DNA of 31,497 bases from positions 1 through 31,497 of the forward strand of contig JAENRP010000437.1 in the NCBI GenBank assembly GCA_024741835.1, given 5' to 3'. This document shows positions 1 through 29,302 of the stretch, one piece after another. The stretch's first letter is position 1. Every line of letters begins with the position of its first letter. Both the position numbers and the translations under genes were made by a program. Below the pieces are notes generated by a model. The model saw only the letters and a program-made list of their open reading frames with translations. It ran no database searches and had not been told where the DNA came from. The stretch is from Diplocarpon mali (taxonomy: Eukaryota; Ascomycota; Leotiomycetes; Helotiales; Drepanopezizaceae).

Positions 1-7
1 TTTTTTT

Positions 8-30
8 ACTCCTAGGCCAGGCCCGCGAGT
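8..30. repeat. 23-bp quasi-palindromic motif, copy 1
   Basis: The left arm is ACTCCTAGGCC, the centre A and the right arm GGCCCGCGAGT. This copy lies outside any reading frame I can follow, near the window edge. It is the closest of the scattered copies to a perfect GGCC-rich palindrome core. Confidence 0.8.
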
Positions 31-669
31 TGATTTTGACTTACTAAGGGGTGGATTTCCTACTTTAGAGTAGAGCGCGCTAGCGAACTCTACTCTATTT
101 CCAATATCTGCAGATTGATTTTTCATATGAAACTGTAAATTATAACAAAAGTTATAACATTATATATATTGCTAGCAAGTACCTTTAAAGGTCTCCCTAA
201 AGGGGTATATTACAGGTATGCCTGTTATATGTTTATCATATGATCTATTATATAATACATTATATATATAATATATTATATGACTTGCTATATGACTTAG
301 CGGCTTCGCTAAGAAGCCCGCTTACCTTAAGTAGCTTGTAGTTAGAGAGCTCTTATGAATTAAGACACCTAATATCGTCGTTTGCACCTTATACTTCTTC
401 GTGCCCTCTCTTCTAGTTTACTATCAAGTTCACTATCAGAGAACCTCCTTGCTACAGTAAGGTATGACGTATATAAGGACCTATAATTAGTAAATGATAA
501 TTATTAAAGGTGAGGATAATATTTTAAAGGTAAGTATTAGAAAGTTATATATAAAGGAAATAATCAAAGGATAGATTATATAAAGAATAAAGTAGAATAA
601 AGAATATATATAGAATAGAATAATAAACAGAGAATAAAGAGGTGCTAGTATATAGAAAGTAGATAATCC
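31..669. other. Non-coding AT-rich region with hairpins beyond the Gypsy-1 third frame
   Basis: No frame is open for any distance. There are short perfect hairpins, ACAGG-TATG-CCTGT at 212-225 and TAGCG-GCTT-CGCTA at 298-311, and a long TA-rich run around 240-290. A purine-rich tract on the minus strand at 394-414 could be the polypurine tract of the minus-strand element, which would place a 3' LTR at lower coordinates. I could not match this stretch to the candidate 5' LTR near 11400-11800, so no LTR is claimed. From 480 to 660 the plus strand is purine-rich and featureless. Confidence 0.4.
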
Positions 670-931
670 TTAAAAAAGATTCAACTCGAATTCGTAAGTT
701 CTCTAAATGGTTTTCTCTAATAGTAATAGGCTAGATTCTCTAGATTGCTTGACTTAATTATCGGTTCTATTATCACTTCGGAGTCTTCTTCTCTTGCGTT
801 AGTTCTTACCTCTCGGCGATTTCTCTAATTCAGGTGTCTTTATTAAAGGAACCTCTATTTATATCCCTAGGTTTGGTAGCCGAAGTTTATCCGAACTATC
901 TTATAGGCTAAAGCTAGCTGAGTCCAACCTT

Positions 932-954
932 ACTCGCAGGCCGGGCTCGCGAGT
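932..954. repeat. 23-bp quasi-palindromic motif, copy 2
   Basis: The arms are ACTCGCAGGCC and GGCTCGCGAGT around G. On the minus strand it is in frame with the third reading frame and encodes TREPGLRV. The plus strand reads TRRPGSRV. Confidence 0.85.
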
Positions 955-1816
955 CAGTCTTAGCGTTTTTAAGCTTAAGGGTAAAAACAGGGGATTGGTT
1001 CCTAAATCAGGGTCTAATACTATACTAGCATCTTAGTTCATTTCTTTTCCGAATTTTCTTACAATAAGGCCTTTATCAATTAGTGCATTAGGCTTTCGGA
1101 TAGCATTTACTTTATCGCATTATCCTTAAGACTTAAGTTTATAAAGAAGCGACTTAGTATTTATAACATTCGTTAAGGCCTTAATAAGGGCGTTAAAGAG
1201 TTTTTAATTATATTCTATAAGGTGGATTTTCAATTTGTCCTTATTAAGAAGGAACAACTCCTATACTTCAGTTATAATAGAAGGATCCGTCTAAGAGCGC
1301 CGACTAATAATAGCTTTAGAGAGGCTACTATAGTTCTTAAGATGAAAAGCTGCCTTAAAAGGTATAGTAGTTCTACTTATATTAATTTATTAAGGCATTA
1401 GAGGTTGCTCTAAAGTAGAGATTGAAAAGATAAGATCGGAGATTTGAGTCTTATTTTCTAAGGTATTCTTATCGCAAATGGCTATATAGTTATTGTAAAA
1501 GGCTATAAAGCTACTAATTCTATAAAGTTTATCTAAGCGCATTTTAAGAAGGTGCCCTTGTTTTATTATTACTATAATAGGGTTACTATTATTAGTAATA
1601 GGCCGTAAGATCTCTTTTTGCTTTATTTTTATAATTATATAAGCTAGCTGAGATTTTGAACCGAGTGCTTAAGAAGTCTATCGACTTATCTTCTTTGCAA
1701 ATAGAGTAAGTTTCATATTCGATTAAGAGCCGACCTACCTATTAAGGCTTCTAATAGCTGGCCCTTATCCGATCGGTAGGATCTAATAATCTAAGACTTG
1801 CTTTTTAATAAAATTA

Positions 1817-1839
1817 ACTCGCAGGCCAGGACTGCAAGT
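1817..1839. repeat. 23-bp quasi-palindromic motif, copy 3
   Basis: The arms are ACTCGCAGGCC and GGACTGCAAGT around A. It is in frame on the minus strand, encoding TCSPGLRV within the third reading frame. Confidence 0.85.
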
Positions 1840-3202
1840 GAAAATCGGAATTTCTTTATTAGTAGCACTTATATCTCTTTTTATTAAAACGACTTGATTA
1901 TAAAGACTAAGGCTAATCAAGTAGAGAGGTTCAAGGTAGGCTATAAGCTAATAGGCTCCTCTACTTTTCGCTATTATAGTTAAGAGGTAGAGTCTATAAT
2001 GCATCTAAAGGACTTATTGAGTAAGATTGAATATTATATTATAGAGAAAATAAGAAAGTATAAAGGTCGCGTTATCTATAAGGCGGAAGTGATAAAGGTA
2101 CATCTCTACTTCTTATCTTATAATAGAGAGGAATATACTTATAAAAGCACTATTATTAGTAGTAAAATTGTCGGTTAGGAAGCGGTATCCGAAGGGTTTA
2201 GGCATTACAATTGACCCTTCTTCTTCTATTTCCTCTTATTATTCATTATTTAATAATATTAAAAAGAAAGAATTATTCTATTTAATTAGCTCTAACGCCT
2301 TTAAGGCTTTAGGATCAGCCTTGAATTTTATAGCACTTAGAGATACTTTTATTATTAATAAGTTGGATTTGCATATCCTTAAAGAGATAAAGAATTGATT
2401 ATTAAGGTAGATTAGAAAAAGATTAATATCTTCTACTATATAGAGAAGTTTAAGGTATTTAATAGTTTTATTAATATCAAATCCTTTATAATTAAGACTA
2501 TAGTAAACCGAAAGAGAGCAAATATAAAGGTTGCAAAGTCTTCTCCTTTCGATTCTTACACTAGGAAGATACTATCGAAAGTGAGTTTTTATTATAAAAG
2601 ACACTTGAATATTATATTATTCTTTAAGCTTAAGGTTAAGAATAACCGATTAAGGCATATTGCTACAATTACAAATGTTTTAATCAATAGATTCCTCTTT
2701 GCATTCTCTTTCTTATAAGATAAAATAGTCTCGCTCGGCATCCGAGAGACTAGGTTCTTAACTTTTATAATTATTAAAGAATTGAATAATATCTATAAGG
2801 GCGAACTCGTTTAAGATAAGCTATTGAATCTATTTAATAGCTCTCTTAGTTATCTTTAGAGCAATAGGAATAGGGTCTTCTCTTATATTATCGTTTTTAA
2901 AACGGTTATATATAGATATAAAGAAGTTAAAAACTAGCTCCTTTAAGTTATTAAGGAAAGAGTCTAATCGGGCGCGCAATCCTTTAGTTTTAAATTGCAA
3001 ATTAGCTAAGGTAGCAATCGAACGATCTATCCTTCTTAAAGGTCGAGCTAAAATAGGTCGTTTAGCTAAAGGAGAGTCCCTTAAAGATTCCGAAAACTCT
3101 AAAGAGGCTGCGCTAAGCGTTTAAGCAGTTTATTTAACAGCGGTTTCTAGAATCATTTTAGCAAAAGGCAAGTTAGGTCCAGTTTTAAAATTCTCGTTTC
3201 TA

Positions 3203-3225
3203 ACTCCTAATCTAGGACCGCGAGT
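3203..3225. repeat. 23-bp quasi-palindromic motif, copy 4
   Basis: The arms are ACTCCTAATCT and GGACCGCGAGT around A. It is in frame on the minus strand and encodes TRGPRLGV. Confidence 0.85.
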
Positions 3226-4050
3226 CAAATTATATAATTTAGCACTTATTATATCTTTAGGCTAAGAAGCGAATTTTAAAGCAGGCTTAATTATAAATAA
3301 CCAATTCCCTTCTTTATTATTAAAGAAATCTTATTTAAACCCTATTATAGGAGTCTAGTTCTCTTTTAAAATAAGCAAACTATAAGTAAAAGCGTAAAGC
3401 CTTAGTATATTAATAATAGTACTATTAAGTAGGGTAATATCTGCAGCCTAATTTAATCTTTTTATAGCCCTATTAGCTGCTATAAGTACTATATTAAATA
3501 GGCCTATAAATCTGCGATTGCGAATTCGATTGCTTTAGAATTTTGCTACTCCTTTCTAAATAATAAAGAAATTGAGAATCTAAATAGCTCTAGTAGTAGG
3601 AGTATTTTCCTTAAGAATTTTTAATAATACTCGTCTTCTATTATTAGAATTAATATTTATTAAGAAGCGCGAATAAAATAGGAGTCCTCTCTTATTAATA
3701 GCTAAATTATCTAGTTGTTAAATAGATTCTTCTCTTTTATCTTAATCTATTTTAAAAGTATCGGCCAAAGTTATATATTGATCTGCGTTAGCTAAGAATT
3801 CCTCTTTAAAGATTCCCTTTAATCTTAATTCTTTAGTTAAGAAGTTATTAAATTGGAGAATTCCGAAGGCCACTTAAGTTAAAAGGTTATTAATAGCATT
3901 CGCGTAAGCTAAAAGGAGTTTTTATTACTTTATATCTCCTAAGGCTATATAGGTTGATTTGAAGCTCTCTAATAATGCAATAGCTCTACTATCCTAAGAG
4001 AAGTTTATAACTAGTGCTTATTTATCCCCTATCGCAGTAGATAAAACCAT

Positions 4051-4479
4051 TTATAAGTTCTTTAAAGGTATATTGCTTATAAAAGATAAGGAGTATAAAT
4101 AAGAGATTTTAATAGGGTATAAGAATTAAAAGGGCATATAAGCTGTAATAGGTTTGCTATATATATATTAAGGAAATTGGACTTTTTATTTATTATTTAA
4201 AGAAAGTAATAGGAATGATATAATTAAAGGCTAATATTAAGAATATAAAATAAGTTAGAGTAAGTAAGAATTTAAAGTGATCCTAAAAGATCTATATCCT
4301 AAATAATAAAGGAGGCGACCTTGCCGAAAATGTAAAAATAAGGATTAAAGGAAGGTAGGACAATTGATAAGTTAGGAAATCGTTTAATATTCCTACTTGC
4401 ATTCTTTAGATATTTTAAGAATAATAACTTAAGGTTGCAATTAATTAGGTATTTTAATATTCTTCACTTATAAGACCGG
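4051..4479 (-). other. Spacer between Gypsy-1 pol and the third frame
   Basis: The pol frame continues here but stops rise to roughly one codon in ten, so I read it as non-coding. One short cleaner run (containing GRLLYYLGYRSFRI, near 4270-4320) may be the true C-terminal tail of pol. No LTR is recognisable. Confidence 0.4.
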
Positions 4480-5900
4480 CTTATAAGTTAAGTTAGAAAA
4501 ATCTTAGTCTTCGTCTAAGGGTTTAAAATTGCTTATATTGCTATCGGTTTTTATAAAAGATTCGAAGGTTATATCAATTTCTGATTCGTCTTCTAAAGGG
4601 AATAAGGTCTAGTTATATTAATAAAAGCGCTTTAGTCGGTTAGCTGCGAAGGTTCCTTTAATATCAATTCTATTAAGTTCCTAAAGAGAATAGTATCCCT
4701 TTTCTTTCTACTCGGATTTAACCTTAAATGGACTAAGCTATCGATAGTTAAGTTTAGTATCTACTAATATATTAATACTTCTTATAATATTATAAACTAG
4801 GACAAGATCATCTTTTCAAATAGGGTGCGTTTTAAGTACTTTAGAAGCAGCCTATACTTCTTTAGCTTTTTCCTAATATTGTTTCTTTTATAGAATGATT
4901 TCCTTTATATCTATATCTTAAAGCTTAAGTTGTCGGCATCTTATTGCAAGCAAATCGGAACGGTTCTAAATTTGACTATAATCGAATAATCTTTAAATAG
5001 GCTATCAGGATTTAAGAGGGAGCTATACCTCTCTATTATAAATAAGGAAAAATGGTATAACTCTAGTTAGTTTATAAATTATCATTTAATAAGCGAAGAG
5101 TATTTTATAAAAGTGTTTTATTTAATTCTTAAATCTTTTATAAGTAACTTTAGATAGCCTATTAAGAATATTGCGATATCCTTGCTCTACTACTTTATTA
5201 GCTTTCGAGTTATACGCTAAGATTTGAACCCGCTTAATGCTATATTTTCATAAAAAAGCTTTAACTACTCCTTTATTTTTAAAGCCTCTATTAATAGTTA
5301 ATCTATTAAAAAGTCTATAGCAATAGACTACGTCTTTTTAAAGGAACTTTGCAATAGATTTAAAGTTAGCAGATCTTAAAGGTTGTCCTTTAGGCCATCC
5401 TAATAGGTCTTCTTTTGCTAGAATAAAATATATAATCCTATTTTCAATTATTAATACTTATATAATATTAAGACTGACTTTATAAAAAAGGCCTAATGGC
5501 TAGGTTAGGAATAAGGGATTCTCTTTATAATTAGGTTTTCGTTTCTAATAGGGGATGCAACTTTTTATAAAGGCTTTGCAGTCTTTAAAAGAACCCTTTT
5601 AAAAGAATTTCCTTAAGAGTCGGTGGTAGGTAGACTTAGCTCCTTAGTAGCCAGTTTCCTTATAAATATCCTAAATAGCCTTAGCCTTTAGTTTTTTATT
5701 ATTTAAGTAAAGTTATATAAGGAATGAGTTATCGCTTCTTTTAAATAATCGTCTTCTTTGTATTAGATAAATTAAAGCTTTAGCTTTAAATTTCTAAAAA
5801 TCCTTAAGAGCAATCGTCTTTAGTCGTTTAAGTGTAATTAAAAACTTCGCAATTTCTTTAGAGTTACTTAAGTAGTTAAGTGATAAAATTCTCTTATTTG

Positions 5901-5923
5901 ACTTATAGGCTAGGACCGTAAGT
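5901..5923. repeat. 23-bp quasi-palindromic motif, copy 5
   Basis: The arms are ACTTATAGGCT and GGACCGTAAGT around A. It lies between RNase H and integrase of Gypsy-1. The host frame reads it as LTVLAYK, one base off the octapeptide phase used by most copies. Confidence 0.85.
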
Positions 5924-7867
5924 TAAGTCCCTTTAAGGCGATATATCGATAGATAATTAACTTTGTTCTCTACCTACTTATTAATATCTATTTCGTCTTC
6001 TTTAATCAAATCAAAAGGGTAAGGGCGAGTTCTTCTTAAAAGGCCGTTTGCAGCGGTATTTTTCATTCCTAGAATATATTTAACTTCAAAGTCCATTAGT
6101 CTTATCTAAGTAATCCATTTCATTAGTAAGGCTCTAGGTAGGTCGCTTGCAGCTCTATTCAATTGTTCTATTAGCACTTTAGCATTAGTTTCGAAGATGA
6201 AGTAAGTGCTATAAAGGTCGCTTCTTATCTTTTTTATCGCTTTTAATACGCCTTTATATTCCTATTTAATAGTATTATACTTTATCTCTGCTAGATTCTA
6301 AAGACTACTTTCAAAGCGAGCTAGATGTCTTTTCTATTAGCTATTAACTTATTAAAGGATAGCACCCTATTCGATTAGGCTTATATCAACTATTAGTATA
6401 ATTGGCCTAGCATCAGATCTATAGTCTATTTTAATCAGATATAGCGCTTTAAGCAACACTTGCTTCAATTGTTTTATAGCCTTTATTTAAGGTTCTTCCT
6501 ATTGAAACTTAGCCCCTTTCTAAAATAAGGAATAAATAGGTACTGCCTTTTTAGCAAAATCCTTAATCTATATGCGATAATATACTATAATACCAATAAA
6601 CGCGCGAGCTTCTACCATATTATTATACCTCTTCTATTTATCGATTTTAAGTACTTTAGCCCTTTAAGGACTTCGGCTATTAGAATTAGTAATAAAACTA
6701 ATAATTTCCATTGATAGAAGATAGTATTATAACTTTAGACTAACTATTGCTCTTGCCCTTTTGAATCGTATAAGCACTTGGTTTAAGTTCTAAATATATT
6801 CTATTATAAATTATTATATACTAAGGAGAACTTCTTTATAGTTATAGAATAATCTTAATCCTTTTACTCTTATATTATTTATATAAAGGAGCGTAATATT
6901 AGGTATGCAATCTACTAATATCTTATAGATTATTTAAATAAATTGAGCGATCGAATTTATAGCTCCTTAAGGTAATCTTATCATCTGAAGTAGCTTAAGA
7001 GGGGTTTGAATTGCTATTATATCTCTCGATTTAATATTAAAAATGAATTGGTTGTATTTAAAGAAGAAGTTAATAAGAGAGCTATAAGTTAATCCTACGA
7101 ATTCATTTAAGAACTTATCTATATTCGAAGGAATATTAGCGTCTTTAATAGTTACTTAGTTCATCTCTACTACTACTATTATTAGTCTGTAAGTTCCCTT
7201 TTCTTTCTTAGCAACTAAGAACTATTTATTCTTATAAGGGCTATTATAGAACTCGAGAATACCTTGCTTTAATCTATCCTTTAATATTTCAATTACCTTT
7301 TCTTAAAGAGCTTTAGGAACCTTAAATGTTTTCTTTTGCTAAGCTTTATAAGGTATTATCTTAATCTTAATATAAGGCGTAACTTTTTCTCGAATCTGGC
7401 CTAGTTCCGTTTAGTCAAAAGCTAAGGCGTCCTTTTAATTTATTAAGGTTTTATAAAGTAGTTCGCATTCTTACTCTATTAAATCTTCTCCTATTTTTAG
7501 TATATTGAAATATTCTTTTATTAGCCGATACCTGATAGGTTTATTAAAAAATCTGCCTATAATGAACTTATCGAATTTGCTACCCGGCTTTAGAGGTCGA
7601 AGCTTCTTATCTTATTTAAACCAATTATCCAATCCTCTAAGCTTCGAGCTATTAAAGATTCCCTAATCTACCAGTTGTACTTTATTAGCCTTGCTTTTAT
7701 ATATAGTTCGAATATTAGCTAATACTATGCTTCTCTACTTCTTTCCTTTTTTATTAAATCCTATAAAACGGTCCGAATTTTCCTTTTTAAAAATAAATAA
7801 AAGATTTTCTAAGTCGTCAATTTGAAGTATATAAATAGAAATGTTATTAGTAATTTTATTATTTTTC

Positions 7868-7890
7868 ACTTGCAGGTCTAGCTTATAAGT
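7868..7890. repeat. 23-bp quasi-palindromic motif, copy 6
   Basis: The arms are ACTTGCAGGTC and AGCTTATAAGT around T. The central T shows it is inverted relative to the other scattered copies. On the minus strand it encodes TYKLDLQV in frame. Confidence 0.85.
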
Positions 7891-8029
7891 GGTTTTTAAG
7901 TTTTTTAAAATAATTATTAAATTATTGAAATTTATAAAACGAACTCTCTTTTCTATCTTATTTTTCTTTTTTCTTAATTATTAAGCTAATAAAACGCCGA
8001 TTGTACCATTCTTTAAAATTCCAGATTTG

Positions 8030-8052
8030 ACTCCTAGTCTAAGACCGTAAGT
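8030..8052. repeat. 23-bp quasi-palindromic motif, copy 7
   Basis: The arms are ACTCCTAGTCT and AGACCGTAAGT around A. The flanks extend the inverted repeat by five bases (ATTTG before, CAAAT after). It encodes TYGLRLGV in frame on the minus strand and is only 139 bases from copy 6. Confidence 0.85.
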
Positions 8053-9945
8053 CAAATTGCCATTATTTAAAATCGGCAAACTCACCTTTCTTTTGCTATA
8101 ACTCCTTATTAAGTGCCTTCCTTTATTAGCATTAAGCCTAGCCCTTATACTAGCTAATCGTTTCCTAAAACCTTGTTTTAGAATTCGGCTATATCTCTTA
8201 TAATAACCATTTATCCTTTTAAAGATCGATCTATATTTTAAAGACTAACTTTTATAAGACTATCTTTAAGATAGTTAAATATTAGTTAAGATTCTAAAAT
8301 AAAGGGCATTTTTAAAAGAATGTTATTTAAAGAATTCTCTATTATTAGAAAGTCAGTATAATTAACAATTCCTCTAACTCTAATCTTTACGTTTTTTACC
8401 TATTTATTAAAATTGTATTTTAATCTAAAGATAGTCGAATAAATAAGGAGTCGATCGCTAACAATTATCAATTAAGCCATTTTCACCACTTTTCTAGTTA
8501 TTATATTAACTTTTGAACTATAATCGATCAAAGCCTTTGCTTTAATTGATTCTTCTATAAAATAAATAATAATAGGGCTCTTTATCGCAATTGCTAAACA
8601 ATTTCGATTAATATTCTAAGATATTAGAGCTATTGCTATAATATTATAATACCTTTAGGTTCCTTCGTCTTTTGCAATCTAAAGACATTTGATTAAGGCT
8701 AAGTGCTTCTTAGAGTTCTTTTATATTACAATTTCTATTTCCTTATTATTATTCAAATTTTTAAAGGCAACTAGGATATGCTTTCCTAGCACTTTATTAA
8801 AGCGTCTAATTAAACCAAATAGGTCTTTAAATATAAGGTTAATTTGCTAAGTTATAATATTCTTTATAGCTTTCTCTATTGCAATTGAACTAGCGTATTT
8901 GTCGACGAATTTCTCCTATTTTAATATCTATCTCTTTTGCTTAAGGTTAAGGGTCTGCGCAATAACTTCGACTTTTTAATCTTCAAGCTTAAAGCTATCT
9001 TTATCTATTATATCTCTAATCAATTCGTCTACTATATCAGCTTTATCCTTATCTACTGCGGTTCTAGATTATTAAGTGTCTTTTAGCGTTTGGACTCTAT
9101 ATTAAGATTCCTAAGTTATACGCATTGATTTCTGGACTTTAGCTAGTTTTATTAGTATTAAAGGAGTGGTAGATCTAGAAGGACGCTAAGTATTCTAAGG
9201 GTTTTTAGATATAGAAGTAGTATTAATATTAGCAGATATATTATTATTAATCTACCTTAAAATAGAAATACCTCTGACTTTAGTAGCAGTCTGGTTCGAA
9301 GTTTAGTTAGTAAGCACTCCTTTAGGTAGATTGCTAGCTAGACCTATATATATATAAGTTAGGACCTTAAAGTTGATTTCGACGATGCGCTTCTATTCGG
9401 CCAAATCCTTGTCCTACTTTATACTATATATTATTATTCGAATAGTCTATAGCTATAAACGATTCTAGTGTTTTTTAATAGGGATAGCGTTTAACTTAGG
9501 ATCTCTAATGCAAAGTATCCTATACTTATTAATATATATGACCTTAGTATTAATAAAACGAAGGAAAAGAGGGCAATCGTTGCAATACTTATATAAAGCG
9601 CAGTTAGGTTCTTTATTATTATAAAAGTTGCAAGTTAGTTGTCTTCTATTGCTATTTCCTTAGTACCCTATAGCATTAATATTAGCAGAATGCTAGTTAG
9701 GATCAATTCCTCCTTCTTTAGCCAGCTATTGCGTTTTTATATTAGCTGGTTATTCTAAATGATAAGAAGCAAGAGTCTAGTAATAGGAACTACTAGGTTA
9801 GCTTATAAGGGCTGAGTTTTATCTATTATTAAACTAAGGAATATGCTGTTTTTCTTATAAGAGATTATTAATTCTAGTTTTTAAGCTTTAGATTCGGAGT
9901 TCTATAAATTGGGTCTTAAGTTCCTTAATTCTAGAGTTAGATCTT

Positions 9946-9968
9946 ACTCTTAGGTTAGGCCTGCGAGT
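9946..9968. repeat. 23-bp quasi-palindromic motif, copy 8
   Basis: The arms are ACTCTTAGGTT and GGCCTGCGAGT around A. It is in frame in Gypsy-1 gag, encoding TRRPNLRV. Confidence 0.85.
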
Positions 9969-10954
9969 GAAAGGTATAACTACTAGGTTCTTCTTTACCT
10001 CTTCTATAACTTCTAAAGCTTTCGAGTGTTCTTAGACTAGGCTCTTAAGGTCTTTAGTATAAAAGGGAGTAAAGGCTTTTTCCTACTCTATAGCATTAAT
10101 AGTTCTCTTATTAAGATCTGATTTTAAAGCAAAGGCCGAGAATTCCTTAAATAAGGCAAAGGTTATAGGATCTTGCTTATCAATCTTAAAATGCTTAATG
10201 ATCTTATTTTAAAGGCTAGTGGGTAATCCGAGTAAGAAAAGGCGGCCTCTTTTAACTTCGCTAAGTATTTTCTAGCTAATTAAGGTATTTAATATATAAG
10301 TAAAAGTCCGATAGTAGTTCTTGAGTTCCTTAAAAGTATAAGTGATTAGAACAAATTCCTTTAAGAAAGCTAAGGTATTGCGAATCTGCTTTCTATCAAA
10401 TTTGCAGAATTCAGATTTAAGGGCCTTAATAAGGAGTTCTTATAAACTATAAGTTTTCCATTTAAGGAGGGACTTAATAATATCTTTACTTATATAATTA
10501 TAGTAGTAAGGAAGTTGAGAAATCATATCCTCTTATATAATATTAAAATTGTAATAAGTTTCCTTATATTACTTAAGGAAATTAGTGATATTGGCGCTTA
10601 TAAAGTAAGGAGCGCTAGGAGAACTAAGAAGGGGAAAGTAATTAGTAATAGCCTTAAATGCGGCCATTATCGTTTTATACTAACTATCTAAGTTAATAGA
10701 ATCTATAAGGGGCAAAGGGGAAGCTTCGATATTATAAGATTGATTATTAAAAGGAGTACTTCGAAATTCAAAAGGGCTTAAAGAACATTTAGAATCTAAG
10801 TTAATCTTAAAGTAACTAAGACGAGTTTAAAAAGATTCGGATAAAGGGTTAGTAAAAAGTTTAAAATTGTTATTATTTTTAATATTTTCAAGCGTTAATA
10901 TTAAAAAAGTAAGTAGCAATCTTAAGTTATTTAAGGATATCTTTTTATCCTCTT

Positions 10955-10977
10955 ACTTATAGGCTAGGCCTAGGAGT
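10955..10977. repeat. 23-bp quasi-palindromic motif, copy 9
   Basis: The arms are ACTTATAGGCT and GGCCTAGGAGT around A. The gag frame reads it as LLLGLAYK, the same alternative phase as copy 5. Confidence 0.85.
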
Positions 10978-14758: not shown

Positions 14759-17275
14759 ATGCGGCCGTAATACGGATCCTTTAGGTTCTGACTAAGTTGC
14801 CTAGTAACAAAGGCGATATCTGGTCTTATATATACTATAGCATATATAATCGCTCTAATATCCTATTAGTACTTCTTTAGATCTCCTCTTTGCTTATTTT
14901 CATTAGTAGGCTTTAACTTATTATACTTTCCTTCGATTGGAGTACGCTTTAGCTTAAAGTTGGGAGTATAAGTAGAAAGTCCTATTTAGTCTAGGATCTT
15001 CTTAATATACTGCTCTTAGTTTAACTAGAGTTTTTAAGTAAAGCGGTTCCTTATAATATAGATGCCGAGGATCTTATGAATTCCCCTTAGATCCTTAGTA
15101 TTAAAACGTTTCTAAATAGTTATAAAGAACTAATCTAATTAAGTGGTTATTTTCGCAGCTGTAGTAATATTATTAATATATAATAGCAACTTGATTCTAC
15201 GCTTAGCATAAGTAAATAGATAAGGGTTAGCTAGGCTTTAAACGAATCCCATTTCTATTAGAGTAAAGCTATATAAGAGGTTCTTATTATAAGCTAATTG
15301 TTTAAGCCTATAGATACTGCGGAGTATATAGAAAGAGTGGCTAGCGTATATAGGAATACCATTAGGTTAAGAGAGAAAAATCCGTTCCTTTATAGTCGCT
15401 TTAGTAAATGCATTTTTAATATTATACTATCTGCATTTAAGGTCCTTAGCGGCTACTATTGCTATAAATATGCAAAGGGTATCTATGCGAACTATTAGTG
15501 CGAATGTATCAAAGTAGTCTTCTCTATACTATTAAGAGAAGCCCTTAGCTATAAGCCTTGCCTTATAACATTCTAAGGTCCTATTTGCATATATCTTAAT
15601 TATAAAGACCTACTTTATTAATACTAGGTTCACGTCCTTTAGCGTTAGTTCCTCTATCTATATGCCATTTGCAATAAGAGAGCTTATCTCCTTTTGAATT
15701 GCCTTATTCTATACTGCTCTATTCTCTAGATTATTAATAGCTTTATTATATATCTTTAGAAGAGAGATTTTCATTATCCCTTTAGCAGCTAGGAACGCAT
15801 TATCTTTATCGAAGCTCTATTGAAGTTCGAGCTTATAGATCCTATATGCTATTATAGCCTAGATACGCTTAAACTTGCGTTTATTTAAGGTATCTTCCAA
15901 TTCTAGGTCTCTATTCCTCTTTAAAGGCATAGGTTTAGCTATAGGTTCTATAGGCTTATTATCTAAGGAACCGCTTTTTAATAGTAGAGGCTTATTATTA
16001 CTTATACCTATTTTAAGAATATCCTTTATTATAAGTACTTTAACTAAAGGGATAATAATATCGAAGTTGTTTTATACTTTAAATAGTTTGCAGACGATAG
16101 GAATAGTCTATTCAGCCTTTAGGCGATCAGCAGGTCGTCGATCAGTAGGTGCGCTTAATATGCTTAAGCTAAGAGAAAGGGGTTATTAATTCGGCTTAAT
16201 AGTATTACTATCGAGTAGTATACCTTGCGAATCTTTAAGCATATAGAGCTTTAAGGATAGCTCCCTTCTATTTCGAGATTTATCGAACTCAACTACTAAA
16301 GATGTGATTACTCGCTTTAGATCTAGCGCATATACTATCTATTGCTTTATTATCTATTTAATATACTTAATAAATATATACTTTCTACCTTAGTCTATTA
16401 GCTTCTTACTCTTTATACCTATAGGCTAGGACTTCGGGCTAATATAGGAGTAGTAGACGCTTTTAAAAACGCAAATATAGTCTAGGCTTAATTTCTATTT
16501 AAAATATGCCTTATATAGCGATATTCGGATGCTATTAACTATTAGTCTACTACCTATTCTATTTTATAAGTATACGTCTGCCTTAATCGCAAGGTCTTAG
16601 AATTCTAATAGCAAGTCAGCATTTTATAATAAAGCGCAATAGTTAGTCTCTGCTTACTAAATGCTTCGCTTAGCAATGCTATTCTAATAGGAACCTTTGT
16701 ATATTACAATTAGTTTATAATAAACTCCTTATTTTACCTATTTATTAAGCTTTACCTTAATCTCTAATGCGTTATTAGACTTAATAGCTATTAGCTTTAA
16801 CTAGGTCTAGCGTTCCTCTATCACTTTTTAAGTTTCCAGCTTTTTTATAAGCTTAGATTTAGTCCTAGCGCAAATGGTCTATATCTGCTAAGTAGAGTTA
16901 TCTACTATTTAAGAAAACCAATTATTTCCTTTAATTAAAGTTATAAATAGTCTAGTAGTATTAATAGATATTAGCGCTAGTATTGAATCTTTTTATTAAT
17001 TAAGCTTAATTTGCATCCGATTTCGAAGTTTTATTAGTTTGCAAATTCGGTATACTAGGCGATCCTTTGGTACTTAGATCTTCTGTTTTAAAGTTAAGAC
17101 CTTATGCAAGCCCTTCAATTTCTCTAGCCTTAGATATGCGAATCTTCTATATATTAGCTAATACCTTAATAGGCTTTCGGCTTCTAATAGCTTTAGTAGC
17201 CTATTGTCAGTCGATACTTTATTATTAGCAGCTAGAAAGGACTAGTAATAGCAGTTTGAGGTTTTACTATTTTCT

Positions 17276-17745
17276 AATTATAAGCCTAGCTTAAGAGTCG
17301 TTTTTAATAAAATCGCAAGATCTACTCGCGGTCCTAGCTTAAGAGTCGATTTCTTAGAAATAGCGAGATCTACTTACGGTCTTAGCTTAGGAGTCGTTTT
17401 TAACAAATCTGCAAAGTTCACTTACAGTCTTAGCTTAGGAGTTATTTCTACGAATTTCACTTGTAATCTTAGCTTAAGAGTCATTATTAGTAAATCTGCA
17501 GAATCTACTTATAATCTTAGCTTAGGAGTTATTTCTACTAAATTTACTTATAATCCTAGCTTAGGAGTCATTTTTAAAGATACCTTATAATCTACTTATA
17601 ATCTTAGCTTAAGAGTTATTTTTGCGAATTTCACTTGCGATCCTAGCTTAAGAGTCTATCTATTCTCCTTATCCTCGCTTAATTATATTAAGGCAAAGAG
17701 TGCACTTTCCTTAAAGGAATCCACTTATAAGTCTGGCTTAAGAGT
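17276..17745 (-). repeat. Ten-copy array of the 23-bp motif inside the Copia-L polyprotein
   Basis: Copies start at 17276 (degenerate), 17324, 17372, 17420, 17459, 17507, 17546, 17594, 17633 and 17723. The steps are 48, 48, 48, 39, 48, 39, 48, 39 and 90, all multiples of three. Each copy is 23 bp, typically ACTTxxxxTCT/CCTAGCTTAAGAGT on the plus strand. In the element's coding direction the unit reads T-L-K/R-x-x-L-x-V. The array lies between protease and the integrase zinc region. Confidence 0.9.
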
Positions 17746-18469
17746 CAATTTCTATAATATTACCTTTAAGATAATATAAAGTCTATCTTTGATTTTAGCC
17801 TTAAAGATCACTTTATAATTATTATTTATAAACTATATAAATTGATTATTGAAAACTCTTATATAATTCAACTCTATATAAAACTTGCAGTTAAATAAAA
17901 GATTAATACTTAAGCTAGGTATAAGGAGAACATTTTATAAAAGGAAAGAAACGCTAGCAATATTTATCTCTATTATACCTATCGAGTTTGTATATAACCT
18001 TCTATTACTAACTATAATAGAGTGCCTTTTTATTTTAATAAGCAGGCCTTTAAATAGGTAGGGTTTGTCAATTATATATGCTATATAACTAGTATTACTA
18101 TACCAGTCGGATTCAAGGATCTTACGAAGATCGGCTTTTAAGATATAAGCATCTTTATTATAATTATTATTTAAATTATTAAAAGTGGATTTAGGTTTAA
18201 ATAACCTATTATTATTATTAAAAGTATCTGCTAAAGTTTTGGCTAAATAGCCTTTTCCTTTGCCTTTCCTTAGTAATTGCAGCCTTTAGTAAGATAAGGG
18301 CAGTTTGCTTCTTAACTTCTACTTTAATTGCTTTTTAATATTAAAGCTAGCGACTATATCAATCAATTGCCTTTTAACTTTATAATTAGTAATATTATAA
18401 GTACTATTATAAAAGTAGCATCCCTAATGAGCTCAAGGGCTTATCCTACGCTCCTTCCTCTTCTTAGGC

Positions 18470-18474
18470 TTATC
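18470..18474. other. Gypsy-2 target-site duplication, left copy (TTATC)
   Basis: TTATC directly precedes the LTR start TGTGAC. The same five bases follow the other LTR. Confidence 0.9.
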
Positions 18475-18718
18475 TGTGACCGATCTGTATATATAGAAAG
18501 CAGGGTCACGTCCACAAGGGAAGATCATATGACCGAGTCAAAACCTTTAGAGCAATCAGCTTAGAATCAACAACTGGAGAAGCTAGTTAATGATAAGGGA
18601 GCACTGCTATATATATAAGAAGGCGGCGGGTAGCGCCGGTAAAGGAAGGTATAAGAATGTATAGGTCCCCAGGATCCTAGAACACATGACGAAGGCAAAG
18701 ATATGCAGGTTTATTATA
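18475..18718 (-). repeat. Gypsy-2 3' LTR
   Basis: This is 244 bp and on the plus strand runs from TGTGACCGATCT to AGGTTTATTATA. The last bases differ from the other LTR (AGGTTCGTCACA) only by C-to-T or G-to-A changes. On the element's strand it is the downstream LTR, next to the polypurine tract. Confidence 0.92.
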
Positions 18719-18735
18719 TCACTCCCCCCTTCGAA
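18719..18735 (-). promoter_or_regulatory. Gypsy-2 polypurine tract
   Basis: On the minus strand this reads AAGGGGGGAGTGA immediately before the 3' LTR, the position and composition expected of the plus-strand DNA primer. Confidence 0.75.
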
Positions 18736-18769
18736 AAAAGCTCGCCCTCGAGCGCTTATCTATTTCCTG

Positions 18770-21700
18770 ACTATTGTTTAAATAATTGTAGTCGTCGATA
18801 CTATCTAAGTATGCTTTTAGCTATAGATTAATATTCTTAAGAGGACTAGGGAGCTCTAGGTTCTTCAAATGAAAATCGCATAGCTTAACTAAGGCGTACT
18901 TAAAGTCTGACGCATTATACTACATCAGATCGATATCGCGATTCAGCTATAAAGCTCTATATTCTAGCTTTCCTTGCTTTTTATATATAGCAAGGAGGTC
19001 TTCAACCTTGTACTTATCGTCACCTATGATATTAATTAATAGCGGCGGGTCGGCTATTTGCCCTAGTAAAAGGTCGTTTAGTACCTTACGCAGGCGCTAA
19101 GGGTAGAATATATCGTATACCTTTATAGAGTTAGGTAACTTAAGCTTATATAAGCTAAAGACTTTATCTATAATATCAAAGGGGCTATTAGTAAGGAAAT
19201 CTAGCTTCTTTAACGGTTATTATATTAGGAAAGGGCGTATATCTAATTAAACTTAGTCTCTAGGACTAAAATCAATAGGGTAGCAGGAGCGGTTAGCTTG
19301 CTTAGCATTGCGCTCTTAAGCGTATTACAGGTAGGAGGTAGCAAGCTTCCAAGCTTTATAATAGCGCGCGGCGTATTATAGCGCGTCTTTGCGATTGATT
19401 TTAGCAGAAGGAGGCTTATTATTAAGAATATTAAGCTTCTAGTCCCAGTTAGTGCAAGGGGCATAGCCGTAAACGACCTTAAAGGGAGTAAGGCCGCCGA
19501 GGGAGTCGTATAGCAACATCAATTAGGCGTAGTCCATTATAGGGAGGAATTCGGACCAGTCATCTTAGTAGTAACTGATGAATAGGCGAAGGCGCTTTTG
19601 CAAGTACTGATTATAGATTTCGGTTTGACTATTTGTTTTGGGGTAATCGGCTATAGACAGTTGAAGTTTTATACTAAGAATCGTATTAAGCTAATTCTAA
19701 AAAGAAGAGATATATTAAGGACCCTGATCAGAGGTAATTGTACAAGGGGCGCCAAAGTACTTGAAAATGTAGTAAATATACAGTTTGGCGGTTTCTCTTA
19801 TATCGATCTTTTTATTACAAGGGATGGAAATAGCTTGCTTGCTAAAGCGATCTATAACGACAAAGACGTTGTTATAACTATGCTTATCGGTATTAGTAGA
19901 TATATAGTCTATATTAATATGCTCCTATAGGCAAATAAGGATCGGCAGAGGATGTAGTAATCCTAGCTTTTTATCACATAGGACCGATGAACGACGATAT
20001 ATATGGCAGTTGCGATAATACTGCTTAATATAGGAGGAGATGCTATACTAATAGTATTAATTAGAAAGCAGCTAGTACGTTTTCGACGCGGAAGGGTGCG
20101 TAGTCAAAACGTTATCGTATACTTCTCTAATAAGAAGGGTTCGTAGATAGTCTATATTAAGTACTATAAGACGATCTTTATATAGAAGGAGATCTCCTTC
20201 TATAGAGTATTTGCTTGCTTATGGCAGATTTGACTTAAGATTAGAATCCAGGGGTAAAAGAGTGTTTTACGCATTAGTGCTGCGCAAGGCTTATAAGCAG
20301 AGAGCGTATAGACTAGGTGAGGTTCTATTAGCTTCGAGGACCTGGTCTATAATGCGAAAGGTAGGAAAGAGGTCTGCGACTTCTAAAGTATATTCGTCGT
20401 ACTAGCCTAAAGGGCGCAGTTCTTTAAAGAGGAGTCGGGGGTCGATTTATTCTAGTTATAGCAAAGTGCATAAACTACGCTAGGAGCGTTTCTTACTATT
20501 TTAGTCATTTAGCTTATCGACGCGCCTAGTTAGGGCGTTGGCCAAAGGGTTTTAAGACCCTAGTCGGTATAAGATAATAAAGTCATAGTCGGCAAGGAGC
20601 TTGGCCTAGCGAGCTTAGCGTGAGTTGAGATCTTTGCTAAATATAAAGTACTCTAGTGCTTTATAATTAGTATAGACCTTGATTTTATAAGGTAATCCCG
20701 CGAGCTTAAGGCGGAAGTGTCTAAAGGAGCGTATAATCGCTAGCATTTCTTTATCGTAAATAGCGTAATTAAGCTTAGCAGGGGCTATAGTCTTACTATA
20801 ATAAGCGACTAAGAGCCAGTTATCTCTATATAATTGCGAAAGAACAGATGCGATAACCCTATTAGAAGCGTCGGTTTCCAAAAGACAAGGCAGCTCCTAG
20901 TGGTAGTATTATAGTACTAAGGCTATAATAAGAGCTTATCGTAAAAGAAGGAAAGAGTGCTCGCACTTAAAGGAAAAGATAAAAGGAATATTGTTTTTAG
21001 TAAGTTCTACTAAGGGCTTGGCTATTATACTATAATCCTTAATAAAACAACAGTAGAAATTATAAAAACTAAGGAATGACTAAACACCTTTGATAATCAA
21101 AGGGTACTTCCAGTCGGCAACGATAGATAATTTCTCTAGGTCTACCTCTAACCCTTCTATTAAGATAATGAATCTAAGATATTTTATACATATGATATTG
21201 AACTCGCATTTTTTTAAATCTACTTAAAGGCTAGTATCAATTAGTCGTTAGAGCACTTTTTTAATATAGATCTTGTATTCGAGCAGGTTGGACAAGTAGA
21301 TTAATATATTATCAAGGTACGCGGTATAAAAATCATTAAGGTAGTCGAAGAGGACATCGTTCATATAGCGTTAGTATATAGCTAGGCCATTAGTAAGGCC
21401 AAATGGTAGTACTTTGCACTTATACGCTCTATAGCGCGTTCTAAATATGGTTAACTCCTTAGAATCTAGATCCATGCGTATATAGTGAAAAGCTTATCGT
21501 ATATTAAGCTTTATAAAGATCTTAGCGCTAGAGAGACGGGCTAGGGTCTTATCGATCAGCAAAAAGGGGTACCGATCTTTATAAGTTAATGCGTTTAAAG
21601 CTCGATAATCTATACAAAGGCGTAAGGAGCTATCGGGTTTCTTAACGAATAGGATCGGAGTAGCGTAGGGTACAGACGATGCTTCGATAAACCCTTTATC

Positions 21701-23085
21701 AAGGTTATCGATAAGGTAAGCTTTAATAGCTTCTAGCTCTAGGATTGACATTTTATATAAAGGGGAATACTTTAAGGCCTTCTTAGCGTTCTCTCTTAAA
21801 TCGATCTTATAGTTGTAAAGGCGATAAGGAGGAAGCTGGTTACTAGCAGATTTGCTAAAGGCTGAAGTATATTCACTATAGACTTAGGGAATAAGGGGTT
21901 CTTGCGCTAGCTTAGAGAGGCTAGTAGAGAAAGAGGCAATAGATATAAGGCCTTCTTTGTACCTCTTTAAGAGGTTATGCTAGTTGCTAGTTTTATAAAA
22001 GACAAAAGAAGACTTGTAGATCAATAAGTCAATTTCATATAAGGAAGTTGTAAAAATCTCTGCTTATTTCCGATTTTTTACAATTATATAAAAGGCGTAG
22101 GCCGATATATAGTGTAAATTCACTTAAGGTAAGGAAGGTTTAGCCTTCTTCCTTTGAAATCGGGATGGCTTATAAGAATTAGCAGCAATAGGCGTTTTGA
22201 TAGCAAATGGGAAGGAATCGGTTAAAGGCCTTAGTATAAAGCGTAGGAGGCGTACGAGCTTTTGATTATAAGAGGCATTATATACTCTAAACGTTACTTG
22301 CTTTATAGGAAGGGGAGCTGCTATATCGTTAGGCACTCTAAGGCCTTAAACTCTTTGGTCTAGAGTCTCTTATCTTTGCTATACTAAAGAGGTAAGAGGA
22401 GGTATTATAAAAGGGTCTTTATCTAGGCTGGAAATACGTGAATCTGTCGAAGCTGGTTAAGTGGCTAGTAAGATAGGGAGTAAGGCGTTAATTTATTAGT
22501 CTATAGTAGCGTCTTAGCGCTTAGCGTCTTGTTGGTGGCGTAAGTTAACTAGATCTTATCGAAGGTCGATCAGTTTAGTATTTCTAGCGTAAGTAATCGT
22601 TAGTAGGTAAGAAGGAGGCCAAATTAGCCTATAGCCTATAACGTCGATTTGCATATGATATTCTTCGAACTAGCGTCGCCTAATGATTATACTATAGTTT
22701 CTAAGGTTTATAATAAGAAAAGGAGTATAAGATTGCAAACAATTGTCAATTATAAGATTTAAAAATATATAATAAGTGACTATGGTTCCTTATATACTAT
22801 TATATCCTTTAATAGGGAATAGGATAGGTAGTTAGTGAAAAATAGGTTATAGAAATTTAGAAAGAGATTTAATTAAGGAAAAATCGATTAATGCGTAACT
22901 ATTAGCTCCTATATCGAGAAGTGCAGACACCTTATAAAATAGGCCATTCTTAATAAGCTTAACTGTTGTAGTTAGAGCTTTGCTACTTAAGAGCTTTATC
23001 AAATCAAGGTGTCGCATATCTTTAAGGAGGCCTAGGAAGGAGGCTTTGCCTAGGCCCTTCCTTTTCCCTTCGAACCAGCTTTTGG
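18770..23085 (-). pseudogene. Gypsy-2 protease, RT, RNase H, integrase and chromodomain
   Basis: One frame (checked at 22915, 21751, 20881, 19621 and 19021) holds a full Ty3/gypsy pol. The aspartic protease has DIGANSYALID at about 22915-22880. RT begins near 21751 (IEASSVPYATPILFVKK, RLCIDYRALN), and YLDD reads YLDN at 21306-21325. RNase H is at 20881-20615 (ETDASNRVIASVLSQ, DKEMLAI). The integrase zinc region, with H, H and C visible (THPSASKTY, YRNCHIY), is at about 20130-20000. The integrase core spans about 19930-19480 (VFVVIDRFSKQAISI, TITSDQGPQY, NSQTEI). The C-terminus has a chromodomain at about 19023-18905 (GDDKYKVEDLLAIY, then YRAL and YNASDF), which in this class binds modified histones and steers integration. 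Scattered stops and the YLDN change make it inactive. Confidence 0.9.
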
Positions 23086-24480
23086 CTATTTATTAAAGTC
23101 AATTAATAGCTTATCTTTATTTGGGACGTCTATTAAATCAACCTTAAGCTCGTTGATTCGGAGGGAAGGCAATAAGAAGCGTTAAACGTAGGAAGAAGAG
23201 GCAGGAGGGGTCGACCTGCCCAGAGTACCTTAGCTACTATAGGGGTATTGCGTAAGGCCAGGCGAAGGAAGGCGTTGATCACGGTAATAGTTATTATAGC
23301 TTGCCTTAGGGGCTTAGTAGGACCTATTGTTATTAGGAAGGTAAGCTTTCTAACTGGTCTTCGAAGTGGTAGGAACGGAATGGCGCGAAGGGGTTGCTAT
23401 CGAAGAGGGGGTAGCCGAGTATAAGGTTTCCTCGGCGTAGATGCTAGTATCTTCTAATTGGATGGCTTCTACCTACTTTTTAAGAGTTTTCGTACGTCCC
23501 TATTGCTAGTAGAGTCGCGTATAAATACGTGCTGTTATTTTCTTGCGAAAGGCGCTTCAAAGGCGGTATTTATTAGTGATCTCGGCGATAGAAGCAAGTC
23601 GACTGAACTCAAGGTAGAATTCTTAAAACGGCTATTTATAAGTCATACGTAGCTTTTAAAAGTCGAGCTCGGCATTATCTCGTTCTATAAGGTTGGCAAG
23701 GAAATCCACAAGCTCTTCGATTAGCTATTCAAAGGGGGTAGTATCTCGACGGTCTTAAACCTTAGGCGTAAGGAAGTCGCGCATAATACCTTCTATCTGA
23801 TCGAGGATATAGTTCTTAATTGATCGTTCTAAGGGAAAGTAAGTGCAGTAGTCGTCTAGGTTATTAAGGATTTAAGATTCCTATAGCTTAGCCCGATATT
23901 CCTTCTTATCCGATAGTTTTTCGGTAAGGTAAGGAACCTTATCGATACGTAGTCGGCTACCATTTATAGAGGGAGCTATAGAAGCTCAGAGGTCGGGAGT
24001 ACTAGCTAGAGTAGAAAATCGTACTTGCTAGCGAGGGAAATGGTCTTCTTCGACTGAGGGGATTGGAGTTTAGGTTTATTGTAGCGTCGAAGAAGAGGGG
24101 GAAGCAGCAGCAGAGGCGGCAGCGCTCGGCGCGCAAGGAGTTTGAGAGTCTCGCTTTGCTAAAGCTCGTTCAAGTTCCTATATTCGTTCGAGGAGCTTAG
24201 CTATCGTCAGATTGTCGTCAGCTTAGGGTGCTAGAGCTGAAGCTAGAGTAGCGGCTATTTGCTTCTTTATCTGTAGTTGAGAAGGGGGTTCTTCGGCTTC
24301 TTCCTCGGAGCTTTCAAAAGCAGCTAGGTTTTAAGGAGGAGCGTCAGATCTTCTTATTTTACTAGATCGACTAAAGGCTGCGGCTTCGTCGGCCGGAGGA
24401 GAGGAGGTGGAGGAGGTGCCCTTAGGCGGTTGTCGTTATTAGGGAGCTATGCTTTAGGATAACTGGAATAGGCCTTCTTT
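23040..24480 (-). pseudogene. Gypsy-2 gag
   Basis: This frame (checked at 24345 and 23157) encodes a gag-like protein. The N-terminal part is acidic and Ser/Ala/Pro-rich (AAFESSEEEAEEPPSQLQ), followed by a likely coiled coil (DDNLTIAKLLERI-x-ELERALAKRD) and a low-complexity Ala/Ser stretch (APSAAASAAASPSSS). The C-terminal part is less clear and I see no CCHC knuckle. It is -1 relative to pol and overlaps it at about 23085-23040, the usual gag-pol arrangement for translation by frameshifting. A few stops are present. The exact start was not determined. Confidence 0.7.
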
Positions 24481-24576
24481 CTATTCGCAATAGTAGTATA
24501 CTTAGCGCAGAAAGGAATCTATTAATTTCGAAAGTTTACTATCGTTTCATTAATATAGTAAGAGAGTTATTAATAA
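24481..24576 (-). other. Gypsy-2 leader and primer-binding zone
   Basis: This is short untranslated sequence between the 5' LTR and gag. The bases next to the LTR read TTATTAATAACTCTC on the minus strand. That is where a primer binding site should lie, but mutation prevents naming the tRNA. Confidence 0.4.
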
Positions 24577-24820
24577 TATAACCGATCTATATATATAGAA
24601 AGCAGGGTCACGTCTATAAGGGAAGATCATATGACCGAGTTAAAACCTTTAGAGCAATTAGCTTAGAATCAATAACTGAAGAAGCCAGTTGATAATAAAG
24701 GAGCACTGCTATATATATAAGAAAGCGGCAGGTAGCGCTGGTAAAGGAAGGTATAAGAATGTATAGGTCCCTGGGATCCTAGAACACGTGACGAAGGCAA
24801 AGATATGCAGGTTCGTCACA
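24577..24820 (-). repeat. Gypsy-2 5' LTR
   Basis: This is 244 bp and on the plus strand runs from TATAACCGATCT to AGGTTCGTCACA. Its start keeps the RIP form TATAAC where the other LTR has TGTGAC, and its end keeps the unmutated form. The pair together give the original termini TGTGAC and GTCACA. Confidence 0.92.
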
Positions 24821-24825
24821 TTATC
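24821..24825. other. Gypsy-2 target-site duplication, right copy (TTATC)
   Basis: TTATC follows GTCACA, and Copia-L sequence (GTTGCCCTATAACGC) resumes directly after it. Confidence 0.9.
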
Positions 24826-26610: not shown

Positions 26611-26621
26611 TTATTATACAA

Positions 26622-28018: not shown

Positions 28019-28832
28019 GCCTAAGAAGAGGAAGGAGCGCGGGATAAGCCCTTAAGCTTATCGGGGATGCTATTTTTATAATAGTACTTATAATATTACT
28101 AATTGTAAAGTTAGAAGGCAACTGATTAATATAGTTACTAGCTTTAATATTAAAAAGCAATCGAAGCAGAAGTTAAAAAGCAAACTGCCCTTATCCTACT
28201 AAAGGCCGCAACTACTGAGGAAAGGCAAAGGAAAAGGCTATTTAGCTAAATGTTATGCATAATACCGCTCGGCCAAAATGTGAATCCATACCTTAGGGCG
28301 CGTACTAGCATATTTAGCCTATTTTCTATATAATACTAAAACTTTAGCAGATACCTTTAATAACGATAGTAGGTCATCTGAACCTAAATCCACTTCTGAT
28401 AATTCAAACGATAATTATAATAAAGATGCTTATATCTTAAAAGCCGATCTTTATAAGATCTTTGAATCCGATTGGTATAATGATACTAGTTATATAGCAT
28501 ATATAACTAATAAACCCTACCTATTTAAAGGCCCGCTTATTAAAATAAAAAGGCGCTCTATTAAGGTTAGTAGTAAAAGGTTATATACGGACTCAATAGG
28601 TATAGTAGAGATAAATATCGCTAGCATTTCTTTCCTTTTGCAAAATGTTCTTTTTATACTTAACTTAAGTATTAATCTTTTATTTAATTATAAGATCTAT
28701 ATAAAGTTGAATTATATAAGAGTTTTTAATAATTAATTTATATAGTTTATAAATAATAATTATAAAGTGATCTTTAAAGCTAAAATCAAAGATAGACTTT
28801 ATATTATCTTAAAGGTGATATTATAGAAATTA

Positions 28833-29302
28833 ACTCTTAAGCCGAACTTATAAGTAGATTCCTTTAAGGAAAGTGCACTTTCTACCCTAATACAATTAAG
28901 CGAAGATAAGGAGAATAGATAGACTCTTAAATTAGGATTGCAAGTGAAATTTGCAAAAATAACTCTTAAACTAAGACTATAAGTAGATTGTAAAGTGTCT
29001 TTAAAGATGACTCTTAAGCTAGGATTATAAGTGAATTTAATAGAAATGACTCTTAGGCTAAGATTGCAAGTGGATTTTATAGATTCACTAATAATAACTC
29101 TTAGGCTAGGATCGCAAGTGAAATTTATAGAAATGACTCTTAAGCTAGGATCGCAAATGAACTTTGCGAATTTGTTAAAAACGACTCTTAAGCTAGGACT
29201 GCAAGTGGATCTTACTATTTCTAAGAAATCGACTCTTAAGCTAGGACTGCGAGTAGATCTTGCGGTTTTATTAAAAATGACTCTTAAGCTAGGCTTATAA
29301 TT
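28833..29302 (+). repeat. Ten-copy array of the 23-bp motif inside the Copia-R polyprotein
   Basis: Copies start at 28833, 28923, 28962, 29010, 29049, 29097, 29136, 29184, 29232 and 29280. The steps are 90, 39, 48, 39, 48, 39, 48, 48 and 48, the exact mirror of the other array. A typical unit has arms ACTCTTAAGCT and GGACTGCAAGT around A and encodes TLKLGLQV or TLRLGSQV in the polyprotein frame. The spacers encode 5 or 8 residues such as DFIDSLIIT. The opposite strand is also open across the array for 171 codons, reading TCDPSLRV-type repeats. Confidence 0.92.

Follow-up and report, generated by a model that had tools for sequence, protein, structure and literature searches.

A 23-bp quasi-palindromic motif shared by retrotransposon-like elements of Diplocarpon mali, a putative two-armed DNA recognition site

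Introduction

Fungal Zn2Cys6 (Gal4-type) dimers bind DNA sites in which inverted CGG and CCG triplets stand at a fixed spacing (CGG-Nx-CCG). Rickettsia palindromic elements are palindromic repeats dispersed inside protein-coding genes, and represent longer, bacterial insertions. The gypsy retrotransposon of Drosophila carries the Su(Hw) insulator array, where sites that bind a protein are clustered in one region of one element. The VANC target motifs of Arabidopsis VANDAL transposons occur in many copies per transposon, often in tandem, and their gain is, according to the authors, hard to explain by base substitutions (PMC5735166). PARCELs are tandem coding repeats with dyad symmetry, tied to mobile elements in some taxa, which encode amphipathic domains of 25 residues (PMC2996958). 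Here we analyse a 23-bp quasi-palindromic motif that is repeated in a 31,497-nucleotide stretch of DNA of the ascomycete Diplocarpon mali (contig JAENRP010000437.1 of assembly GCA_024741835.1, hereafter called the window) and in repeats elsewhere in the same genome. Our literature search found no paper describing this motif.

An earlier note, based on the window alone, had listed nine copies of the motif in an element named 'Gypsy-1' and had interpreted them as a tiny mobile unit or a hairpin-driven insertion. We propose that the motif may rather be a DNA recognition site with two arms, which has spread between retrotransposons by copying of the whole unit and has been maintained by selection, a reading that we favour at about even confidence.

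Results

Copies in the window were counted with a degenerate 23-mer, 21 of whose 23 positions had to match. This yielded 30 copies, against 0 or 1 in each of five mononucleotide shuffles. The framework ACTY-N15-RAGT, whose total length is 23, occurs 32 times in the window, versus 0 to 14 times, mostly 1 to 6, for the same ends set at other lengths between 8 and 83, with the highest counts at lengths 28 (12) and 71 (14). Scanning the genome (49.4 Mb in 676 contigs) with up to three mismatches returned 970 forward and 948 reverse matches, two counts that overlap because the pattern is nearly its own complement, and 0 and 0 matches for a reversed-pattern control. Chance occurrence in AT-rich DNA is ruled out by the shuffles, the reversed control and the length profile. 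The earlier note had suggested a degenerate genome-wide search, with lack of enrichment as a refutation, which clearly did not occur; its view that the motif is found as a whole unit, in both orientations, in unrelated sequences and far above chance is borne out.

The nine copies initially reported are all present, each 23 bp long with ACT...AGT ends. They are found at 8..30, 932..954, 1817..1839, 3203..3225, 5901..5923, 7868..7890, 8030..8052, 9946..9968 and 10955..10977 (no strand is assigned to single copies). As a full tally this list fell short of the 30 copies, since it overlooked a copy at 4466..4488, two nine-unit tandem arrays, and single copies beside the left array (17723..17745) and the right array (28833..28855). 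The left array (17276..17655, plus strand) has units starting at 17276, 17324, 17372, 17420, 17459, 17507, 17546, 17594 and 17633, with spacings of 48 or 39, and is part of a large inverted repeat, of which it occupies the left arm. The right array (28923..29302, minus strand; starts at 28923, 28962, 29010, 29049, 29097, 29136, 29184, 29232 and 29280) is its inverted partner.

To the window we added approximately 265 kb of sampled DNA, including 20 stretches of 10 kb, only some of which were chosen around known motif places (in what follows, L-numbers designate stretches fetched outside the window, and W the window). After removal of overlapping loci, 210 fetched copies, all recognisable at 21 of 23 positions, were clustered by their flanks into 56 groups. 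Hand curation then dropped groups 26 and 45 as chance and 37 as weak, and merged groups 46 and 54 into 4, 49 and 53 into 21, 55 into 0, 31 and 43 into 40, 36 and 44 into 39, and 41 into 38. With array units merged into five tandem groups, and with the 21 single places, there are 26 curated places. Tables of 44 sites were drawn up before this merging, from those 44 of 54 groups whose flanks were clean, and contain some redundancy; the main counts were repeated on the 26 curated places. Most of the surroundings of these approximately 26 places do not align to one another. Fourteen of the 21 single places belong to the Gypsy-1-like element, whose copies hold the motif at identical places, so that the large copy number is mostly due to amplification of the elements.

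Exact matches to the pattern ACTCNCRGKCCNGGMCYGNGAGT numbered 99 in the genome and 0 in the control. Fifty of these matches were listed, and in 37 of them the arms contain CGG and CCG, unmutated copies being mostly ACTCNCGGKCCNGGMCCGNGAGT. With the outer arms fixed and the spacer left free, ACTCNCGGN{2,20}CCGNGAGT gave 99 places, and 48 of the 50 listed have a 7-base spacer, i.e. a length of 23 bp, so that the CGG...CCG spacing is fixed at N7; a fixed spacing of these triplets is also a feature of Zn2Cys6 dimer sites. The fixed length noted previously thus applies to nearly all listed places, with rare exceptions such as a Gypsy-1 copy with one extra base (L036:5284). The ideal form with CAG/CTG arms proposed at the time looks partly mutated by repeat-induced point mutation (RIP). 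Its only exact match in genome_contigs (L060:6178-6200), near the end of a 6.2-kb contig of a cyanobacterial metagenome-assembled genome, is taken as chance. It has no exact match in viral_contigs, and the CGG/CCG form has no match there. As for the interior, which had been said to vary beyond RIP, this is true between places, mainly at positions 5, 9 and 12, but within a place differences are almost only transitions, the one exception being the place of W 5901, where position 9 shows a non-RIP difference.

Conservation extends past the presumed ends of the motif. Position -2 is C or T in 52 of the 52 arms of the curated places (86 of 88 in the larger, partly redundant set), position -3 is T in 37 and position -5 is A in 32 of the 52. 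The 23 bp are therefore not the edges of the conserved unit, which measures at least 27 bp, and the earlier argument from fixed length and conserved ends to an insertion is not supported. The two arms vary independently. Positions 5 and 19 are complementary in 8 of the 26 curated places, and positions 9 and 15 in 17, with combinations (GC 15, TC 6, GA 3, TA 2) equal to the expectation without association; all eleven pairs are complementary in a single place. Some pairs elsewhere were broken by RIP, and the mismatches at 5/19 and 9/15 are mostly transversions. As the arms do not co-vary, there is no sign of a conserved hairpin, contrary to the hairpin-driven origin considered earlier. The arms go together, as 166 of 167 strict half-sites, both strands counted, have a partner arm, versus a chance rate of 0.11. 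The inner core alone was found at 84 places versus 17 for its control; of the 50 places listed, at least 40 coincide with motif copies by their coordinates. We thus rejected the short inner core as a host-wide site, since it is near chance outside the motif; recognition, if any, would need the outer arms.

RIP does not produce transversions, and we compared their frequencies in the motif with those in its 60-bp flanks, using identical places and copies for both, in 15 of the 22 groups with at least three copies, array groups excluded. Pairwise, 31 of 13,524 motif positions differ by a transversion, versus 1,062 of 66,671 flank positions. By columns, the counts are 4 of 345 versus 118 of 1,760 (p = 6e-6), and 2 of 200 versus 26 of 539 (p = 0.015) when only G/C columns are considered. 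In four homologous arrays, transversions affect 64 of 3,312 motif positions, versus 16 of 192 and 184 of 1,000 positions in two spacers. The motif thus appears to have changed less than its surroundings as far as transversions are concerned.

The sampled motif copies lie in AT-rich repeats, including a Copia element (in the pol linker and at the 3' end), 'Gypsy-1' and others. In the 20 fetched 10-kb stretches, 1-kb tiles with a GC content below 0.40 harbour 89 matches in 121 tiles, a density biased upward because some stretches were chosen around motif places. In a small sample of 64 tiles with a GC content of at least 0.44, also partly chosen around motif places, there is one weak match that looks chance-like by eye. 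Tiles of intermediate GC content or rich in N were excluded from this count.

The main carrier is Gypsy-1, for which two probes returned 251 and 282 first-look candidates, the best 40 of each being scored. The earlier assignment of all nine copies to this element is correct for eight of them, and the additional copy at 4466..4488 also lies in it, but the copy at 8..30 is in a Copia 3'-end stretch (window 1-456), between a T-run and the apparent start of the 3' long terminal repeat (LTR) region. Motif places are retained in relatives that are 69-82% identical, such as those of 9946..9968 in a 75%-identical relative (L038) and of 10955..10977 in a 69%-identical one (L018). The earlier note had named homologous copies in other genomes, all with the motif at identical places, as evidence against its reading; such copies exist within this genome, including those relatives, and beyond it a single site, that of 5901..5923, is shared by two Diplocarpon coronariae proteins. 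This site corresponds to L026:4991, which is within a 144-residue stop-free piece, and the two hypothetical proteins, 81% and 75% identical to the Gypsy-1 piece, align with it through the site without gaps. Two parts of the main element (window 1004-2960 and L030:626-2533) are approximately 57% identical over some 2 kb, and the motif occupies corresponding positions of their alignment (1817..1839 and L030:1424). With the motif masked, their alignment scores 962, versus at most 233 in 20 shuffles, pointing to an internal duplication that is probably old. Groups 3 and 14 are linked through this duplication and are thus not fully independent. Regarding the 'Gypsy' label, no convincing Pfam match was found among the pieces of the element; one piece has a weak PDB match to HIV-2 reverse transcriptase (E 0.03), and the element's reverse transcriptase-like piece did not align with the other one in the window. 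The reading of its pieces and this weak match suggest that it is a retrotransposon, a nature that Pfam did not confirm.

In Copia-like elements, tandem motif copies adjoin the peptide RKRGRPPG (L031:5163-5426 and L035:5371-5637). This linker array comprises two units in L031, at least three in L048 and four in L035. In L031 an RVT_2 match lies downstream of it, on its strand; RVT_2 passes its cut-off in L031 and falls short of it in L014. Our search for proteins homologous to the linker array found none. In the window, a stop-free, protease-like Copia piece precedes the right array (28284..28736, plus strand; Pfam Pol_BBD E 0.011, below its cut-off).

At the 3' end of Copia elements the motif is found behind the pol stop. 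To look for empty versions of this place, the most direct test of insertion, we collected 187 candidates with an empty query, scored the best 40 and retrieved 20 other top-ranking copies. In this ranking, which favours empty copies, each of the 20 is filled. Altogether 26 of 27 Copia rows are filled, six of which (L014, W, L040, L041, L051 and L052) were included because they bear the motif, so that the fair count is one empty copy, L035, and 20 of 20 others filled. In L035 the motif and approximately 8 bases after it are missing, and the copy is some 31 bp shorter. Its junction corresponds exactly to a deletion from the ACT at the motif start to the ACT eight bases past the motif. An alternative reading of this junction is an empty site bearing a duplication of TGATTTT. 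The listed alignments of fetched copies show no further clean empty place. The comparison of filled and empty loci suggested earlier hence provided no clean pair with a target duplication, the only empty copy fitting a deletion equally well. Between the pol stop and the motif, the Copia 3' ends (L014, L035, L041, L051-L052 and L061-L080) also harbour two or three tandem units like GCACTTCTATTAAGGGGTGATTTTTTTTT.

A second LTR-type element of the window (18479-24813), with an RNase H match on the minus strand (E 1.5e-21 at 20618-20896), contains no motif copy, and therefore not every retrotransposon here carries the motif. The large inverted repeat has arms at 15080-18484 and 28004-31497 that are 88-89% complementary, hold both motif arrays and enclose other repeats. 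Among the latter are direct repeats at 18479-18711 and 24581-24813 (93% alike) and an inverted pair at 24821-26228 and 26611-28018 (92%).

Discussion

We propose that the motif is a putative recognition site with two-fold symmetry of at least 27 bp, YN-ACTCNCGGKCCNGGMCCGNGAGT-NR in its commonest unmutated form, carried both dispersed and as tandem arrays by several retrotransposon-like families. A protein contacting both arms, probably as a dimer, would bind it to the benefit of the element, for instance by driving transcription or by shielding it from silencing. The CGG-N7-CCG architecture makes a Zn2Cys6 dimer a candidate binder, although this is a guess. New sites would arise by copying of the whole unit, since point mutation could hardly have produced so many long sites; the arrays show tandem duplication, and transfer between elements may account for the other places. 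A bolder extension, which we put forward only tentatively and consider doubtful, is that unrelated retrotransposon families of one fungus share a portable 'passport' site of 27-35 bp for one trans-acting DNA-binding factor, and that they gain sites by element-to-element copying, e.g. through template switching in reverse transcription, thus exploiting that protein or being policed through it.

Several observations weigh against the recognition-site proposal. The arms are unequal at position 5. If arms starting with ACTCG are called alpha (A being counted as a mutated G) and those with ACTCC or ACTCT non-alpha, the 26 places comprise 10 alpha/alpha, 16 mixed and 0 non-alpha/non-alpha combinations (p = 0.03), and the redundant set of 44 gives 12, 31 and 1 (p = 0.001), which is not what a plain homodimer predicts. 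Much of the transversion excess of the flanks comes from diverged groups. At the place of W 5901 the trend is reversed, with transversion frequencies of 0.024 in the motif and 0.002 in the flanks, and at that of W 4466 there are none in either. Transitions are no rarer in the motif (0.131) than in the flanks (0.096), as RIP acting on a GC-rich word should produce. Because the copies are related, the counts do not represent independent events, and only copies that still match at 21 of 23 positions were entered. As RIP has mutated most of the copies now present, present function cannot be claimed. Finally, several sites are in stop-free pieces, to whose conservation constraint on the peptide could contribute.

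A peptide repeat under protein-level selection, reading approximately T-x-R-P-G-x-R-V in frame 1 with the palindrome being incidental, would explain the latter observation. Several copies are in frame 1 of stop-free pieces, the spacings of four array types (39, 45, 48 and 54) are multiples of 3, the array pieces are free of stops over 112-175 residues, and the linkers contain repeats such as DFTPRPGLRVNSDSY. We nevertheless find this explanation very unlikely, because the motif also occurs behind the Copia pol stop and in another frame within a stop-free Gypsy-1 piece, the fifth tandem group has spacings of 61 and 64 (L020) or 61 and 65 (L036), which are not multiples of 3, and the bases that are synonymous in frame 1 (3, 15 and 18) are restricted. 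For these reasons we place the constraint provisionally on the DNA, while allowing a share for the peptide. Constraint on RNA, in the form of a hairpin serving the retrotransposon life cycle, is most improbable and largely refuted. Although the motif is a quasi-palindrome, compensatory changes are absent, a single one of the 26 curated places pairs at all eleven positions, a low number that is partly due to RIP, and the window has no Rfam match at the gathering threshold.

The remaining alternatives concern the origin of the places. A tiny palindromic insertion that spreads by itself, comparable to Rickettsia palindromic elements or PARCELs, and enters tolerant retrotransposon places such as pol-domain linkers and 3' ends, is in our view rather unlikely. 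The presence of the whole unit at unrelated places in both orientations is in keeping with it, as are the two motif-containing Copia-like linker pieces (L031 and L035) and the Copia copy devoid of the motif plus 8 bp resembling TGATTTTT on its left. However, that copy exactly fits an ACT-to-ACT deletion and 20 others are filled, the conserved signal runs past the supposed ends, and the GC-rich tiles of our small sample yielded only the one chance-like match in 64. Places are common to relatives 69-82% identical and, in one case, to the approximately 57%-identical internal paralogue, a homology that holds with the motif masked, and therefore any insertions would be old. A free insertion need not be conserved, yet the motif has fewer transversions than its flanks. 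The motif looks more like a protein docking site than like jumping DNA. Equally concerned with origin is shared ancestry, i.e. that the places all go back to a single older sequence, rich in repeats, whose flanks are now too divergent to be recognised. The two related parts of the main element illustrate such descent, and the reduction of the 56 flank groups by curation, which left five tandem groups and 21 single places (14 of the latter in one element), goes in the same direction. We consider it quite unlikely as a general explanation, given that the flanks of the remaining places do not align mutually, that Copia and Gypsy-1 both carry the motif at places without visible correspondence, and that within arrays divergence is already much greater in the spacers than in the motif.

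If the motif is a shared docking point, it would open a direct way to study the activation or recognition of fungal retrotransposons in genomes subject to RIP, and would imply that a unit acting in cis can move from one retrotransposon family to another. Should it prove to be a mobile unit after all, it would in our judgement be remarkably short for a nuclear genome.

The motif shares features with each of the known systems. Like Rickettsia palindromic elements, it is a dispersed palindromic repeat, but no empty place proves insertion here, and unlike in a self-mobile palindromic insertion its conservation continues outside its ends, as seen at position -2. Like the Su(Hw) array, it may represent a cluster of protein sites in a retrotransposon, but it is found in several families and at many positions. 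Similar to Zn2Cys6 sites, it is fungal and has inverted CGG/CCG triplets at a fixed N7 spacing in independent half-sites; it differs from them in that conservation reaches far beyond the triplets and in that it is carried in transposon DNA. Identity with PARCELs was rejected, as their coded repeat has 25 residues, whereas the present unit of at least 23 bp has coding periods of 13-18 residues, is read in different frames and is also found behind a stop codon, outside coding DNA. The VANC targets appear to be the nearest described analogue that we found. Like them, the motif is present in many copies in transposons, partly in tandem; in contrast with their 9-bp motif, it is a palindrome of 23 to 27 bp or more, and it is carried by Copia and other retrotransposon-like elements, including within stop-free coding pieces.

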